DNA of 62,925 nucleotides, from positions 1-62,925 of the forward strand of contig CANRJS010000010.1 in NCBI GenBank assembly GCA_947631015.1. The letters are read 5' to 3'. Every line of letters starts with the position of its first letter. The stretch's first letter is position 1. Shown here in pieces: positions 1-62,925 of the stretch. The notes beneath the pieces are model-generated. The model did not search any database. It was not told where the DNA came from and worked only from the letters and a program-made list of their open reading frames with translations. This DNA is from an uncultured Clostridia bacterium (GTDB taxonomy: Bacteria; Bacillota; Clostridia; Oscillospirales; JAAYOS01). Made by a program: the position numbers and the translations under genes.

Positions 1-168
1 CTCGAGCGTCAGCTCGGGCGAGACGGGACGTCCCGCGAGGAACCGCGCGAACGCGCGCGCGTCGTGCAGATACTTCTCACGCGTGCAGACGCTGCGCCGT
101 TTCGCCTCCAGCTCGCGCGCGAAGTCGGAGAGGACTTCGTCTGTGAGAATCAAATTTGTCATTTTCAT
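1..168 (-). CDS. Tyrosine recombinase (integrase) N-terminal fragment, cut by window edge
   Basis: Reading leftward, a frame of 56 codons starts at the ATG at 168-166 and is still open at base 1. An AAGGAAG ribosome site lies 5 bases before this ATG; an ATG two codons later is the alternative start. The peptide resembles the SAM-like core-binding domain of tyrosine recombinases: a charged helix (DEVLSDFARELEAKRRSV) followed by TREKYLHDARAFARFLAGRP. The catalytic Arg/His/Arg/Tyr residues would lie outside the window, so neither activity nor subtype can be judged. It may be a mobile-element integrase, a DNA invertase or a Xer-like protein. The family call rests on pattern only. Confidence 0.6.
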   Translation of the reverse strand, partial: MKMTNLILTDEVLSDFARELEAKRRSVCTREKYLHDARAFARFLAGRPVSPELTLE

Positions 169-245: not shown

Positions 246-282
246 CAAAAAGCCCCCGCGAAACATACGTTTCGCGGGGGCT
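246..282 (-). terminator. Rho-independent terminator for the isomerase gene
   Basis: A perfect 14-bp stem (251-264 with 269-282) has a 4-base loop. Leftward it is followed by a run of T (246-250). It closes the 3' region of the leftward isomerase gene and is the last module of repeat copy A1. Confidence 0.8.
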
Positions 283-510
283 TTCAGCCTCGCAGAGTTT
301 CGCGGCGTAGCCGCGAAATAAAGTCCAATCCGTTTTTTGCCGCGGCGTGTACGTGGCAAAAAACTCTTTGCGCGGAGCGCGCTTCGAAGCGCCGCAGACG
401 CGAGGAGCGAAGCGTAGCGAAAGGCACCGGCAGGGCAAAGCTCTGTCCGGTGCCCTCGGCGCGAAAGGGTGCGCAGGGCGATTTATCGCCCGAGCACATT
501 TCGCGACGAC
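251..510 (-). repeat. Family A 3'-flanking modular repeat, copy A1
   Basis: Read leftward, this non-coding stretch begins with the 20-base box GTCGTCGCGAAATGTGCTCG, directly abutting the TAA stop of the isomerase gene (511-513). Then come a hairpin (GGGCGAT AA ATCGCCC), the box TGCGCACCCTTTCGC, a hairpin built on GGCACCGG/CCGGTGCC, the segment TTTTTTGCCACGTACACGCC, ACTCTGCGAGGCT and the terminator at 246-282. The same boxes in the same order recur after other genes at 48540-48832 and 58511-59010. No convincing reading frame is present. Confidence 0.75.
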
Positions 511-1398
511 TTATCTTATGTTTTCCGAAAGCCACTTGCAGTCGTCCGCGATGCACTGATCGTGGTCGCCGTAGAACTCCTCGCGCTCGACTATCCAGAA
601 CGCGTCCGGGCTGGTCTCGTCGAGAGCCTTCTTTATATCGACCCAGTCGATGTTCGACTCGGGCGCGCCTATCGGGCACTGAGTGTGCGCGCGCTGAGCG
701 TCCATCTCGGCCATGTGCTTCTCCATGTCGTCAAGCATCTTCTGGCGCTGTTCGACCGGCAGCTCCATGATGTTCTGGAACGGATTGCCGTGGTCCTCCT
801 GAACGGCGTGGCGCGAGCGCGGCTGCGGGCCGGGGCCCATGACCTTCGAGTTCTCCTTGATATGTATCGAGACGAAGCGGCCCGGATAGCGGCGGATGAA
901 GTTCGCGGGGGAGTGGCCGCCGTACATCGCCCAGCCGCAGTCGAGCTGGAAGTAGCACTTCGAGCTGTTCTCTATGACGTGCTCAAGCAGAGCCTTGCCT
1001 TCGTCGACATAGAACTCCTTGTTGTGGTTGTGATATGCGACCTTTATCCCGTAGGGCGCGGCCATCTCTGCCATCTCGTCGAGGATGTGCGCGACCTCTA
1101 TCGCCTCGGCCTTGTTGCAGAAGTCGGTGCTTGCCCAGATAACGGCCTTGCCGCCGAGGGCGGCCATCTTCTTCACTATCTCCTCGGTGGGCTCCGCATG
1201 GACGGACGTGACCTCGAGGCCGGTCTCCGCGAGCCACTTCTTGATGTCCTCGATGTCGTTGTCGAGGTCCGCGGGCAGCAGCTCGACCGTCTTAAAGCCG
1301 AGCGAGGCTATGGTCTTGAACTTCTCGAGCAGTGTCGGCCCGAGCCCGAGATAGCTCGCCATTCCGCCGAAGGAATAGGTTCCGATCCCGATTTTCAT
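511..1398 (-). CDS. Sugar phosphate isomerase/epimerase-like TIM-barrel protein
   Basis: A 295-residue protein of the xylose-isomerase-like / AP-endonuclease-2 superfamily, which includes IolE-type dehydratases and keto-sugar epimerases. Visible marks are YHNHNKEF (His-Asn-His at 123-125), QLDCGW (151-156), VSIHIKE (176-182) and a C-terminal IVEREE. These are the strands that carry divalent-metal ligands in this fold. The start is ATG 1398, with AAGGAGGAG six bases before. It is a single-gene unit with its own promoter (1452-1480) and terminator (246-282). Its stop codon touches repeat copy A1. The substrate is unknown; myo-inositol, tagatose/psicose or tagaturonate pathways are all possible. 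Confidence 0.75.
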   Translation of the reverse strand: MKIGIGTYSFGGMASYLGLGPTLLEKFKTIASLGFKTVELLPADLDNDIEDIKKWLAETGLEVTSVHAEPTEEIVKKMAALGGKAVIWASTDFCNKAEAIEVAHILDEMAEMAAPYGIKVAYHNHNKEFYVDEGKALLEHVIENSSKCYFQLDCGWAMYGGHSPANFIRRYPGRFVSIHIKENSKVMGPGPQPRSRHAVQEDHGNPFQNIMELPVEQRQKMLDDMEKHMAEMDAQRAHTQCPIGAPESNIDWVDIKKALDETSPDAFWIVEREEFYGDHDQCIADDCKWLSENIR

Positions 1399-48469: not shown

Positions 48470-48500
48470 AAAGCGCGCACACGCTTCAAAACACACGCAA

Positions 48501-48530
48501 AAGAGGGCGGGACAGAAGTCCCGCCCTCTT
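48501..48530 (+). terminator. Terminator of the giant surface-protein locus
   Basis: The 13-bp stem AAGAGGGCGGGAC/GTCCCGCCCTCTT (48501-48513 with 48518-48530) has the loop AGAA, 31 bases past the stop. Confidence 0.75.
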
Positions 48531-48539
48531 GCTGTTGTC

Positions 48540-48832
48540 TAGTCGATATCTCGACTAAAGCCTCGCATACGATTCCGCGCCGGTTCGCGCGGTTGAAGCC
48601 CACGGCAAAGCCGCCAACTTCGCGCAGGCCAATTCTGTATGGTGTTTGGCTTTGCTCGCGAAGCGAGTAAAGCTCACGAGGGCCGAACAGGTTCCGATGA
48701 AGAATTGGTTGGCGCCCTCGTGTTCCGCACGAGCATTTTGGTCGGAAGGGTTCCCAAACGCTCCAAAGGAGCGTTTGGGAATTGCGAAAGGGTGCGCAGG
48801 GCAATTCATTGCCCGAGCACATTTCGCGCCGA
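48540..48832 (-). repeat. Family A 3'-flanking modular repeat, copy A2
   Basis: Read leftward, it starts directly after the TAG (48835-48833) of the ferritin-like gene with TCGGCGCGAAATGTGCTCG. The hairpin GGGCAAT-GA-ATTGCCC, the box TGCGCACCCTTTCGC and the hairpin CCCAAACGCTC-CTTT-GGAGCGTTTGGG follow. A module GAACACGAGGGCGCC ... CCCTCGTGAGCTTT ... CGCTTCGCGAGCAAAGCC comes next, then CGCGCGAAC-like arms and TGCGAGGCTTTAGTCGAGAT. It ends in the hairpin TAGTCGA-GATA-TCGACTA (48557-48540). Confidence 0.8.
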
Positions 48833-49273
48833 CTATCGGAGATACTTTTTTAAGTCCTCTCCGCACTGTTTCTCGAAGTCTATCAGCGCCGTGGCGAGGT
48901 GCTTTGCCTCGTCCGAAGCGTCCGGGCAGGAGTTCTGCGCGCCCTCCACCTCGGTTATACCCATGTCCGCGCCGCGTATCGCCATCTCCGCGAGGTGCGA
49001 GGAGCTCGCGTCGAGAGCGGTGTTGAGCTTTATGCCGGCCTTGCTCATCAGCTTTGTCATCGAGCCGTAGTCGTCCGGGCGCTCGTGCAGACGGTGCAGC
49101 CGTCCGAGCGCCGCCGCTTCGAGCGCGCGGTAGTGGCTGAGCTGATTTGTGAACTCGTCCCGCAGGGACGGGTCCTTAGTCACCGAGAGCAGGTGCTCGG
49201 TTGCGCCCGCACCCATCGTAACCGTGCCGTATACGGCGCCGAGAAGCTCGATGTCGTCCTTGTCCTTTTTCAT
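48833..49273 (-). CDS. Conserved hypothetical helical protein, ferritin-like in pattern
   Basis: A 146-residue, almost all-helical protein (DKDDIELLGAVYGTVTMGAG, LRDEFTNQLSHYRALEAAAL, SSSHLAEMAIRGADMGITEV, then HLATALIDFEKQCGEDLKKY). Four long helices with acidic positions recall ferritin-like or DUF2383-like bundles, but the metal ligands are not clear. Similar proteins appear in clostridia as hypothetical proteins. The start is ATG 49273. It stands alone, leftward, with repeat copy A2 fused to its stop codon. Confidence 0.72.
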   Translation of the reverse strand: MKKDKDDIELLGAVYGTVTMGAGATEHLLSVTKDPSLRDEFTNQLSHYRALEAAALGRLHRLHERPDDYGSMTKLMSKAGIKLNTALDASSSHLAEMAIRGADMGITEVEGAQNSCPDASDEAKHLATALIDFEKQCGEDLKKYLR

Positions 49274-55276: not shown

Positions 55277-55308
55277 TGAGGGGCGAGCCCACGCCCGAGT
55301 GGGCAAAG

Positions 55309-56005
55309 CCCGCACCCGTATAGCGGGGAAGCCCCGCGAGCATTCGCGGGGCGAGACCCCGCGTCCCTAAGTGAGGCAGAGCCTCACCGGCACTTTGCGG
55401 GGATTGCATCCCCGCACCCCGCGTTACTTTTTGCTTGTGCAAAAAGTAACCAAAAAGCACACAAAGGGGAGAAAACCACGGTTTTCTCCCCTTTGTACCC
55501 CTCTTTCCTTTGACCGGAAAGTCTCTGCTACGCCATACATGAGTCCGTAGCTTAGTACAAGCGTCCACGCTCAAACTTTCCACTAGAACCGAAAGTTCAG
55601 ATTTCTCGGGAAAGCCTCTGCATTACGCTTATAGTGTGAGCGTAGGACCGGACTTTTTGTATCTACTACGCAGGAACTGTTCGATGTCGTCGAATAAAGT
55701 GGGAAAGTCGGATATTCTTTCCCCAGAAACTCACCCGGTCGGATGATGGATTTGTTTGATACAGAGTATCGTCCTGTTATGCGAGTTGCGGTTGTGTGTC
55801 GTATTCAGGAGAGAAATTTTTAAGGGAGAGGGCGAAGCCCTCTCCCTTAAGCGCGCTTTTTGGTTACTTTTTGCGCGAGCAAAAAGTAACGCAGGGGTGC
55901 GGGGGCAGCGCCCCTGCAAAGTGCCGGTGAGGCTCTGCCTCACTTAGGGACGCGGGGTTCCGCCCCGCGAATGCCTGCGGGGCTTCCCCGCTAGATGGGT
56001 GCGGG
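55309..56005. mobile_element. Family B inverted-repeat element with about 150-bp arms and a 396-bp core
   Basis: Left arm 55309-55458 and right arm 55855-56005 are inverted copies of one another with scattered differences. Each arm is itself a string of hairpins: GCGGGGAAGCCCCGC, a GCGGGG...CCCCGC pair, GTGAGGC-AGA-GCCTCAC, a C/G-rich pair, and GTTACTTTTTGC-(4)-GCAAAAAGTAAC (55423-55450 and 55863-55890). The core 55459-55854 carries a hairpin at each end (CAAAGGGGAGAAAACC and CTTAAGGGAGAGGGC types) and no convincing frame. It begins 32 bases past the htrA stop. It looks like a non-autonomous, MITE-like element, but no target duplication was identified. Confidence 0.6.
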
Positions 56006-56228
56006 GGCAGCGCCCCCACAAAGTGCCGGTGAGGCTCTGCCTCACTTAGGGACGCGGGGTCTCGCCCCGCGAATACTCGCGGGGCTTCCCCGCCATATGG
56101 GAGTGGGGCGCATGCCCCACATCTGCCTGTGAGGCTCAGCCTCACTTCGGGACGCGGGGTTCCGCCCCGCGAATGCCTGCGGGGCTTCCCCGCTAGATAG
56201 GTGCGGGGCTTGCCCCGGAAAGCGGTTG
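55927..56228 (-). repeat. Three tandem units of about 101 bp, family B
   Basis: Units start with GTGAGGCTCTGCCTCACTTA or near variants at 55927, 56029 and 56129 (spacing 102 and 100). Each holds four hairpins, among them GTGAGGC/GCCTCAC, GGACGCGGGG..CCCCGCG and GCGGGGCTTCCCCGC. The first unit is the right arm of the element at 55309-56005. The array ends 27 bases from the 3' end of tRNA-Ser. Confidence 0.8.
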
Positions 56229-56488: not shown

Positions 56489-56561
56489 AACGGAGCGCGT
56501 GACTGACGGAAGTGGAGCACCACATGGAGCGCGTGTCCTCGGCAGCCGACCGTCTGGGTGG
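56489..56561 (+). promoter_or_regulatory. ZTP/ZMP riboswitch (pfl motif)
   Basis: The leader shows the pfl consensus in order: GCGTGACTGACGGAAGTGGA, then GCACCACATGGAGCGCG, a variable linker, then GCCGACCGTCTGGGT, the strand that forms the pseudoknot. These riboswitches bind ZTP or ZMP (AICAR nucleotides), signs of folate shortage. They turn on one-carbon and purine genes. The next two genes use exactly that metabolite (ZMP). The 3' strand doubles as part of the terminator at 56550-56589. Confidence 0.88.
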
Positions 56562-56589
56562 AATCCTTCCGATACCCGGGCGGATTTTT
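56550..56589 (+). terminator. Riboswitch-controlled terminator
   Basis: CCGTCTGGGT (56550-56559) pairs with ACCCGGGCGG (56574-56583), allowing G-U pairs, and ATTTTT follows. The left strand is the conserved pseudoknot strand of the aptamer, so ligand binding should prevent this hairpin. Confidence 0.82.
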
Positions 56590-56614: not shown

Positions 56615-57328
56615 ATGCAGAAAAATGAGCAGTATCTTCGCGAAAACGCGTATCCCGGCCGGGGGATAGTCCTCGGCGCGACGCCCTCCGGCGCGGCGCT
56701 CGTTCAGGTCTACTGGATAATGGGCCGCAGCGAGAACAGCCGCAACCGCGTGTTTGTCGAGACGGAGGAGGGCGTCAAAACCGAAGCGTTCGACCCCTCC
56801 AAGATGATCGACCCGTCGCTTGTGATATACTACGTCACACGCACCGTTGGCGACAAGCACATCGTCACGAACGGCGACCAGACCGACACCGTCGCGGACT
56901 TTCTCAAAAAGGGAAGCACCTTCGAGGCGGCGCTTCTCACGCGCTGCTATGAGCCGGATGCGCCCAACTGCACCCCGCGCATCTCCGGCATGACCGACGC
57001 CGCGACCGGCGCGTACTCGCTCTCGATACTCAAAACCGTCGGAAATGACGAGAGCTGCGAGGAGAAGGCGTTTTTCACCTACAAGACGCCGATAAACGGC
57101 ACGGGTCACTGCATCCACACCTACGACGGGGACGGCAGCCCGCTTCCCAGCTTCTCCGGCGAGCCGTATGAGGTCTCGCTCTGCGAGACCGCGCGCGAAA
57201 ATGCCGAGAAGTTCTGGGACATGCTCGACCGCTCGAACCGCGTGAGCCTGCTCGTGAAGCATATCGACTGCGCCTCGGGCAAGGTCGAGACCGTCATAGT
57301 AAACCGCAACGGAGGAGAAGAAAAATGA
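56615..57328 (+). CDS. purO: IMP cyclohydrolase, PurO-like
   Basis: A 237-residue protein of the PurO/IMP-cyclohydrolase-like family known from archaea: YPGRGIVLGATPSGAALVQV, NRVFVETEEG, VTNGDQTDTVADFLKKGSTF and NCTPRISGMTD match the PurO pattern (NGSHTD, NTPRI). It closes the ring of FAICAR to give IMP, the last step of purine synthesis, which most bacteria do with the PurH N-terminal domain. ATG 56615 is chosen, with AAAAGGAGC before it. It overlaps the next gene by four bases (ATGA) and is controlled by the ZTP riboswitch. Confidence 0.85.
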   Translation: MQKNEQYLRENAYPGRGIVLGATPSGAALVQVYWIMGRSENSRNRVFVETEEGVKTEAFDPSKMIDPSLVIYYVTRTVGDKHIVTNGDQTDTVADFLKKGSTFEAALLTRCYEPDAPNCTPRISGMTDAATGAYSLSILKTVGNDESCEEKAFFTYKTPINGTGHCIHTYDGDGSPLPSFSGEPYEVSLCETARENAEKFWDMLDRSNRVSLLVKHIDCASGKVETVIVNRNGGEEK

Positions 57329-58506
57329 ACTCGATAGAGCTGAAGTACGGCTGCAATCCCAACCAGAAGCCCTCCCGCATATTTATGCGCGACGGCGGCA
57401 ACCTGCCGGTGAAGGTCCTCTCCGGCAAGCCCGGCTACATCAACTTCCTCGACGCGCTCAACGGCTACCAGCTCGTAAGCGAGCTGAAGGAGGCGACGGG
57501 ACTTCCCGCCGCGACCTCCTTCAAGCACGTCAGCCCCGCCGGCGCGGCGATAGGTCTCGAGCTCACGCCGAAGGAGCGGAAGGTCTGCCGCATAAAGAAG
57601 AGCGCGGAGCTTTCGCCCCTCGCCTGCGCCTACGCCCGAGCGCGCGGCGCCGACCGCATGAGCTCCTACGGCGACTTCGTGAGCCTCTCCGACGTCTGCG
57701 ACGTCGAGACCGCCCATCTGATAGCCGCCGAAGTGAGCGACGGCGTCATAGCCCCCGGCTACACCCCCGAGGCGCTCGAAATACTCAAGCAGAAGCGTCA
57801 GGGCGGCTACAACGTGATAGAAATAGACCCCGATTACCGCCCCGCCGAGCAGGAGTACAAGGACGTCTACGGCGTCACCTTCGAGCAGGGCCACAATAAC
57901 TACCGGCTCACAAATGAGGTTTTTGGCAACATCGTTTCTGACCGCAAGGACATACCCGAGAGCGCGAAGCGCGACCTCCTCATCGCGATGATAACCCTCA
58001 AGTACACGCAGTCGAACTCGGTCTGCTACGCCTACAACGGCATGGCGATAGGCATCGGCGCGGGTCAGCAGTCCCGCATACACTGCGTCCGTCTCGCAGG
58101 CGGGAAGGCGGACACCTTCTTCCTCCGCGGCTCGGACAAGGTGCTGAACCTGCCGTTCAAGAAGGGCCTCGCCCGTGCCGAGCGCGACAACGCGATAGAC
58201 GTCTACCTCACCGACGGCGACTGGGAGGCGATGCTTGAGAGCGACCTCTGGCAGGACTACTTCTCCGAGAAGCCGGAGCCCTTCACCGTCCCCGAGAAGC
58301 GCGAGTACCTTTCGCACATAGACGGCGTGAGCCTCGGTTCGGACGCGTTCTTCCCGTTCAGCGACAACATTGAGCGCGCGAAGCGCTCCGGCGTGCGCTA
58401 CGTCCTCGAGCCCGGCGGGTCGATACGCGACGACGCGGTCATCGACTGCTGCAACAAGTACGACATGGTGCTCGGGTTTACAGGGATGAGGCTGTTCCAC
58501 CACTAA
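57325..58506 (+). CDS. purH: Stand-alone AICAR formyltransferase (PurH C-terminal type)
   Basis: A 393-residue protein matching only the transformylase part of PurH: ELKYGCNPNQKP at the start, SFKHVSPAGAAIGLEL with catalytic K67 and H68, NSVCYAYNGMAIGIGAGQQS, and the closing VLEPGGSIRDDAVIDCCNKY. It formylates AICAR (ZMP) with 10-formyl-THF. The MGS-like cyclohydrolase domain of normal PurH is absent; PurO upstream replaces it. It is translationally coupled to purO. Four bases after its stop begins repeat copy A3. Confidence 0.93.
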   Translation: MNSIELKYGCNPNQKPSRIFMRDGGNLPVKVLSGKPGYINFLDALNGYQLVSELKEATGLPAATSFKHVSPAGAAIGLELTPKERKVCRIKKSAELSPLACAYARARGADRMSSYGDFVSLSDVCDVETAHLIAAEVSDGVIAPGYTPEALEILKQKRQGGYNVIEIDPDYRPAEQEYKDVYGVTFEQGHNNYRLTNEVFGNIVSDRKDIPESAKRDLLIAMITLKYTQSNSVCYAYNGMAIGIGAGQQSRIHCVRLAGGKADTFFLRGSDKVLNLPFKKGLARAERDNAIDVYLTDGDWEAMLESDLWQDYFSEKPEPFTVPEKREYLSHIDGVSLGSDAFFPFSDNIERAKRSGVRYVLEPGGSIRDDAVIDCCNKYDMVLGFTGMRLFHH

Positions 58507-58510
58507 GAAA

Positions 58511-59010
58511 GTCGTCGCGAAATGTGCTCGTGGCGAACACGAGGGCGCCGAGATATTCCACATCGGAACACATTCAGCCCTCGTGAGCTTTGCCCGCTTC
58601 GCGAGCAAAGCCAAACATTGATATAATCCTCTGCGCACCCTTTCGCGCCGAGACTTTCACTTGAAATTGCGCAGGCGCAATTTCAAGTGAAGCTGTCGGA
58701 TAGGGCGAAGCCCTACCGACAGCATGCGCCCGGCTTCGCAATTCCCACGCGGTCGGTGACCGCGTGGGAGCCCTTCCGATTGAAATGCTCGGCGGAAATG
58801 AATTCCGCCTGCGCGAAGTTAGCGGCTTTGCCGCTAACTTCAACCGCGCGAACAAGCGCGGAACCGCATTTGGCGGAAAATCGACGCGCGCTCCGCGAGA
58901 TGAGTTTTTTCCGACGTACACGCCGTCGGAAAAACGATTAGAACTTATTCGCCGCTTGCGCGGCGAACTCTGCGAGGCTTTAAGGACAGGCACGGAAGTG
59001 CCTGTCCTTT
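58511..59010 (+). repeat. Family A 3'-flanking modular repeat, copy A3 (longest)
   Basis: It starts four bases past the TAA with GTCGTCGCGAAATGTGCTCG. Then come the module GAACACGAGGGCGCC ... CCCTCGTGAGCTTT ... CGCTTCGCGAGCAAAGCC, TGCGCACCCTTTCGCGCCGAG and a run of hairpins. The hairpins include CACTTGAAATTGCG/CGCAATTTCAAGTG, GTCGG...CCGAC, CCCACGCGGTC/GACCGCGTGGG and GAAGTTAGCGG/CCGCTAACTTC. The element continues with GTTTTTTCCGACGTACACGCC and ACTCTGCGAGGCTT and ends with the terminator stem AAGGACAGGCAC/GTGCCTGTCCTT (58982-59009). There is no coding frame. Confidence 0.85.
58982..59010 (+). terminator. Terminal hairpin of repeat A3, probable terminator of the purine unit
   Basis: The 12-bp perfect stem (58982-58993 with 58998-59009) has the loop GGAA, and TTT closes it. 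Further hairpins (AATCGCAGG/CCTGCGATT and GCCTGTCA/TGACAGGC) follow to 59096. Confidence 0.75.
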
Positions 59011-59191
59011 GTGTTGAGGGCAATCGCAGGCTTCGCCTGCGATTGAGGTTTGCCGCGAAAGCCTGTCAATAAAGTTTGTCAGAACTTTTTGACAGGCCGA
59101 ACCGTCCGGGCGATTTGCGTTGACAGTCTGCGAGTCTCGGACGGCGCGCTTTTGGGTTGCGCGGCGGGGAAAAATTGCGCGCGGAGGGCGG

Positions 59192-62765: not shown

Positions 62766-62925
62766 GCAAATCTGCGGGCGAAGCCCGCCACCTTTTCACG
62801 GGGCAGGCCCCGCACCCGTGCAGCGAGGAAGCCCCGCGAGCATTCGCGGGGTAACCCCGCGTCCCTAAGTGAGGCAGAGCCTCACCGACACTTCGCGGGG
62901 GCGCTGCCCCCGCACCCCCGGCGGG
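62766..62925 (+). repeat. Family B palindromic repeat, copy running off the right edge
   Basis: Beginning just past the acetyltransferase stop, it contains GCGGGCGAAGCCCGC, a GGGGCAGGCCCC hairpin, GAAGCCCCGCGAGCATTCGC, GCGTCCCTAAGTGAGGCAGA and GCCTCACCGACACTTCGCGG. These come in the same order as at 55309-55420. It continues beyond the window. Confidence 0.8.

Follow-up and report, generated by a model that had tools for sequence, protein, structure and literature searches.

The DNA analysed here, a stretch of 62,925 nt from a gut bacterium (the window), carries three copies of a repeat built of palindromes, each of which begins just behind a stop codon. On balance, this element is probably a mobile, MITE-like repeat, non-coding and composed of DNA palindromes; it would target intrinsic terminator hairpins, and it is now a mosaic. 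We put forward more tentatively a fuller version, in which a mobile element reads terminator hairpins by shape alone and duplicates the entire hairpin (a target-site duplication of about 22-42 bp that is defined by structure), while its palindromic modules insert into and replace each other; in one lineage, dozens of genes would in this way have acquired exchangeable hairpin mosaics as their 3' ends. The observation made in the first-pass annotation of the window is real, and it is stronger than was stated there.

The three window copies and placement across the genome

Copy 1 (287..510, -) lies behind the stop of a gene for a xylose-isomerase-like TIM barrel (511..1398, -). It runs from the head A hairpin, which begins at 510, through modules B2, C, D1 and D2 to the tail box CTCTGCGAGGC (287-297). 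Copy 2 (48559..48833, -) follows a gene (48833..49273, -) with a weak match, below cut-off, to the ferritin-like DUF2383; it has head A, module E with an F-type insert and a shortened tail, TGCGAGGCT, and has no D1. Copy 3 (58511..58978, +) follows the AICARFT/IMPCHase gene (57325..58506, +). Its head A hairpin (58511..58650, with boxes at 58511-58530 and 58632-58646) holds module F in the loop and is followed by two palindromic modules, TTCACTTGAAATTGCGC..GCGCAATTTCAAGTGAA and GCTGTCGGATAGGGC..GCCCTACCGACAGC (58656..58723). Module E comes next (58739..58875), built as ATTCCCACGCGG..CCGCGTGGGAG..ATGCTCG, a hairpin and CTGCGCGAAGTT..AACTTCAACCGCGCGAAC, and the copy closes with module D1 (GAGTTTTTTCCGACGTACACGCCGTCGGAAAAAC, 58903..58936) and module D2 with the tail box CTCTGCGAGGC (58948..58978), all on the + strand. 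The three upstream genes were delimited with the gene caller and named with Pfam. A ZMP/ZTP riboswitch lies at 56489-56566 (+), upstream of the gene series whose last member is the AICARFT gene.

The head box GTCGTCGCGAAATGTGCTCG was found at 491-510 (-), 48814-48833 (-, one mismatch) and 58511-58530 (+), against a chance expectation of 0.03 matches, and TGCGCACCCTTTCGC was exact in all three copies, at 461-475 (-), 48784-48798 (-) and 58632-58646 (+). The adjoining genes end at 511 (-), 48833 (-) and 58506 (+). A repeat-coverage scan, which is independent of the boxes, placed the element edges at 512, 48836 and 58512, no more than 6 nt from these gene ends. Box positions, gene ends and repeat coverage together confirmed that the three copies begin 0-4 nt past stop codons and are co-oriented with their genes, as the first-pass annotation had noticed. 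Pfam also agreed with its naming of the upstream genes as an isomerase, a ferritin-like protein (by the weak match given above) and AICAR formyltransferase. The hairpin at the far end had been counted as part of the element and is not: it differs in sequence from copy to copy, and in each case it is the intrinsic terminator of its own locus. These terminators are AAAGCCCCCGCG..CGCGGGGGCTTTTT beyond the tail of copy 1 (247..284, -; outside the element and also found before recombinase cassettes), AAGAGGGCGGGACTTCTGTCCCGCCCTCTT after copy 2 (48499..48530, -; read by eye) and AAGGACAGGCACGGAAGTGCCTGTCCTT immediately beyond the tail of copy 3 (58982..59009, +). The fixed order of boxes described at first was only partly true: the head is one of several that can stand in for one another, and between the boxes entire modules may occur or be missing.

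For the genome-wide survey, places with the tail box were fetched with their flanks, the stretches around the elements were read, and chance tail-box matches inside genes were removed by repeat coverage. The tail box CTCTGCGAGGC occurred 108 times in the window's own genome, compared with 7 times for a reversed control, and 79 unique, repeat-confirmed elements were left after the filter. The head box occurred 24 times in this 1.89-Mb genome (one occurrence is probably spurious), and most of the 73 head-box copies tabulated from four species have a co-oriented stop no more than about 13 nt from their start. Both neighbours were known for 62 elements, and in 48 of these the start coincides with a co-oriented stop or lies no more than 16 nt from it; the gene calls came from a home-made codon-usage caller, and single distances may be wrong. 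Under a null model that placed the elements uniformly within their intergenic spaces and oriented them at random, 17.5 (sd 2.6) stop-adjacent starts were expected, and 48 was reached in none of 100,000 simulations. Between co-directional genes, 24 elements run with the genes and 4 against them; between convergent genes, the end nearer to the gene is the head in 28 cases and the tail in 3. An intrinsic terminator then follows in 34 of 56 stop-adjacent elements, and most of the remaining elements begin directly behind a terminator (some of them of tRNA genes) or behind the tail of another element. Genome-wide, most copies thus lie within about 30 bases of a stop and co-oriented with it, the outcome that the first-pass annotation had named as support. 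Its statement that the element begins at a stop in one orientation every time holds for these 48 of 62 elements and not for the remainder, and four elements oppose both neighbours.

Some elements start 2-16 nt past TATAAT-like -10 boxes, sense to the box (L085/L126 with C23:6245, L040, C3:5976, L089/L099, L101, L110 and L190); that these arose by insertion into R-loops or transcription bubbles is speculation. At L201, L215, L209 and L221, the stop codon of the upstream gene lies in the left arm of the head, and the element seems to supply the stop. Two elements stand tail-to-tail between genes at L033, L087 and L010. The pairs at L010 and L087 lie between convergent genes, and each element starts near the end of its own gene.

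Module exchange and inherited sites

The elements are short, non-coding, multicopy repeats in which no conserved ORF was seen, as is usual for MITEs. Their length is mostly 200-800 bp and their foot sequence is variable (AGTCGGC, TTTCGGC, CTTTCGC). Many heads occur across the 79 elements, including TTCGCGGGAAATCGC..GATTTCCCGCGAA, CTCACAAGAAAC..GTTTCTTGTGAG and CACTTGAAATTGCGC.., and the same 76-nt module was found in three settings: the loop or arm of D1, a head loop, and beside the tail. Palindromes entering palindromes is the simplest description of this nesting and of module F in the loop of head A. To our knowledge, no module swapping has been described in ERIC and similar repeats. A second palindromic repeat family (GGGGAAGCCCCGCGAGCATTCGCGGGG, CCCTAAGTGAGGCAGAGCCTCACCG, TTACTTTTTGCTTGTGCAAAAAGTAACC), with tandem and inverted copies, occupies window positions 55299-56215 and 62807-62921; it also stands behind the stop codon at the L036 site in G001 and G002.

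We surveyed head A in the window's genome and 58 relatives. It was confined to one genus, where four species (G000, G001, G002 and G004) had it and the fifth, G003, did not. At 14 sites followed in the three other head-A species, a repeat comes immediately after the stop in all 39 resolvable orthologous cases: head A in 19, another head or a remnant in 18, and another repeat family in 2 (all tallied by eye). Stop-to-head spacers are alike across species despite the different heads, e.g. TAAAGACTTTCG. No exact empty site was found within the four-species group, and the corresponding gene ends of G003 show plain hairpin terminators or lack the element. Because all 39 orthologous sites are occupied but about half carry a different head, the position of a site is inherited while modules are exchanged among the four species. 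The earlier suggestion of a tail that arrives with genes is not supported, since orthologous genes carry the element in the four species and are without it in G003. Gene 3' ends with inherited position but species-swapped content make palindrome exchange directly comparable in close relatives.

A homologous element and paired hairpins in a second family

Among 394 genomes of the order, the tail was found in 19, namely four of the genus and 15 others, mostly of family f13. The f13 element is about 200 bp long and ends in AGACTGTC..GACACGCTG; its ends TAGACTGTCAAAAAAG and CTTTTTTGACACGCTG (CAGCGTGTCAAAAAAG) are imperfect inverted repeats, whereas the window's genus shows no clear repeats of this kind. 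Of 40 f13 loci, 21 have a hairpin of about 22-42 bp, specific to the locus, on both sides of the element; their similarity exceeds the 99th percentile of controls made across loci. The first hairpin copy is preceded by 8 nt rich in A (78 A, 22 T) and the second is followed by 8 nt rich in T (78 T, 25 A), which gives the layout A-tract, hairpin, element, hairpin, T-tract. The terminator hairpins are unrelated in sequence between loci, as is expected of insertion into hairpins of any sequence. Related loci also show the hairpin alone: L326, L328 and L329, the relatives of the L289 locus, have one similar hairpin (e.g. AAGCACAGGC..GCCTGTGCTT) and no element, and many relatives of the L302 locus have a hairpin terminator without the element. 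Compared in this way, the f13 pattern looks like insertion with duplication of the terminator hairpin. The earlier idea of a recombination end is supported in spirit, by a homologue in another family whose flanking duplicated terminator hairpins are what insertion would give. At L302 and L280, the loop of the second flanking hairpin reads like that of the first inverted (TTTTT/AAAAA, AAT/ATT), an arrangement not predicted by a simple staggered cut.

Flanking hairpin duplication was found around none of the 79 elements of the window's genome. The tail side faces the stop of an opposite-strand gene in 19 of the 21 f13 duplication loci, whereas the head side faces the stop in the window's genus; among the 19 f13 loci without duplication, 7 seem to lie against a co-oriented stop, as the window's copies do. 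Judged from these comparisons, the elements of the two groups are homologous, not identical in behaviour.

In the mechanism that we favour, the element would insert at intrinsic terminator hairpins. Terminators here are polar and begin a few bases past the stop, so that an element inserted at one would start at the stop in a fixed orientation. Palindromic modules would enter or replace one another's loops, from which the mosaic and the head swapping would follow. We infer that the window's genus used the same hairpin targeting as f13, and that a structure-specific transposase was involved; joining at the two 5' feet of a hairpin would duplicate the whole hairpin, and one hairpin copy would have been lost, or never made, in the window's genus. 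The elements in that genus look immobile at present, varying by module exchange, and whatever they do to mRNA ends would be secondary. This mobile-element reading is supported by the bias in position and orientation, the terminators past the tail or before the head, head A in four species with inherited sites and swapped heads, the stems without RNA wobble bias, the 76-nt module in its several settings, and the f13 hairpin pairs with their empty sites. Against it stand the 79 own-genome elements without duplication, the polarity that differs from f13, the lack of a Y1, RVT_1, DDE_Tnp_1 or DDE_Tnp_1_6 gene in the genus, the starts at -10-like boxes, and the four-species group in which no exact empty site was found.

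RNA fold, neutral insertion, candidate enzymes and known systems

It is unlikely, though it deserves serious weight, that the repeats are a selected 3'-UTR RNA element whose post-stop hairpins shield the mRNA at its 3' end or delay the release of ribosomes. Orientation would then be explained because the functional form would be the RNA fold, and the sense-strand location just past stop codons, the retention of all 39 orthologous sites and the very strong predicted fold of the sense RNA (z -13.4) are in its favour. It also has a precedent in E. coli, where about half of the REPs are reported to be close enough to the stop (about 15 nt) to stall ribosomes (PMC12306157). By the same report, the first-pass remark that ordinary REP or MITE sequences are not expected at stops was too strong. 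The stems themselves point the other way. In the distinct stems of 193 elements, mismatches were G.T in 48 cases, A.C in 79 and others in 180; selection for a sense RNA fold through G-U intermediates should favour G.T, and since G.T was not enriched over A.C, such selection was not shown. The early suggestion of a 3'-UTR RNA element therefore stands as to position behind stops and not as to the stems, which, from this comparison, point to pairing kept perfect as DNA palindromes and not as a selected sense RNA fold. Compensatory pairs occur often, and module B2 has a constant AC/G bulge; the search pattern for B2 demanded the bulge, yet antisense copies gave no match. Searches against Rfam gave nothing above the gathering score over the window elements or in 20 loci. 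Heads and modules turn over at one and the same site, some elements stand downstream of terminators, in DNA from which little transcript should arise, and G003 manages without elements, all of which count further against an RNA function.

Neutral filling of intergenic space is rather improbable. Random intergenic insertion, followed by strong pressure to delete all unconstrained DNA, would leave repeats abutting the last constrained base, and the elements do also abut terminators and -10 boxes in a genome that is compact (1.9 Mb). However, such a process accounts neither for the orientation bias (24 vs 4; 28 vs 3) nor for the f13 hairpin duplications, and the similar stop-to-head spacers in species with different heads, such as TAAAGACTTTCG, also argue against it.

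We give very little credence to the idea that the element is the recombination site of an integron-like or tyrosine-recombinase system. Directly after copy 1, window positions 1-168 (-) encode the N-terminus of a tyrosine recombinase whose gene is truncated by the end of the contig; the recombinase is multicopy, and its paralogues (L242-L251) likewise stand behind gene ends. However, most of them have the leader terminator that also stands beyond the tail of copy 1, followed by the cassettes' own inverted repeats, TCGACATTATTGGTATAATGTCGA, and most copies are without a complete element. The unit is likely a multicopy promoter-inversion (phase-variation) cassette, followed at L249 by a pilin-like gene, and as part of such a cassette the recombinase beside copy 1 was rejected as a mobiliser. 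Least credible of all is that the elements form a REP/BIME system and owe their movement to a RAYT (Y1 HUH) transposase: the elements are palindromic and multicopy and lie near stop codons, as REPs do, but REP units are short (a 20-40 bp palindrome) and RAYT-associated, whereas the units here run to hundreds of bases and have no constant GTAG/CGTC foot, and Y1_Tnp (PF01797) was matched in none of five genomes of the genus (MAGs with missing parts), with the control positive in 5 of 14 known genomes.

Group IIC introns target terminator hairpins, in which they are like the mobile element proposed here, but no reverse transcriptase (RVT_1) was found in the five genomes of the genus. Pneumococcal BOX repeats share the modular, palindromic, multicopy and non-coding build, and they can lengthen transcript 3' ends; the likeness is one of description, and the parts of PMC3049150 drawn on here describe neither a stop-codon rule nor hairpin duplication for them. 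ERIC and other small repeats, as cited in the same parts of PMC3049150, are non-coding like the element here, again a likeness by description, and their effect depends on orientation.

The closest comparison is with IS1272 and TnSha1, which target hairpins of any sequence, often transcription terminators; IS1272 deletes or replaces its target hairpin, and TnSha1 inserts in both orientations (PMC4923244, PMC5678879). One of these papers (PMC5678879) includes a sketch, with no data attached, of a route by which the entire stem-loop is duplicated when joining takes place at its 5' feet. Hairpin targeting regardless of sequence is common to the IS1272/IS1182 family and the f13 elements, but the former remove or replace the hairpin, whereas the f13 elements are flanked by two copies of it. 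Both groups of elements here also differ from IS1272 and TnSha1 in being oriented and having no conserved ORF. No DDE_Tnp_1 or DDE_Tnp_1_6 (IS1182-type) transposase gene was found in the window's genus. Elsewhere, DDE_Tnp_1_6 had a match in G193 and a partial match in G267, and CTGTCG, from the left end of the f13 element, also occurs on the IS1182-type element of G193, a weak resemblance.
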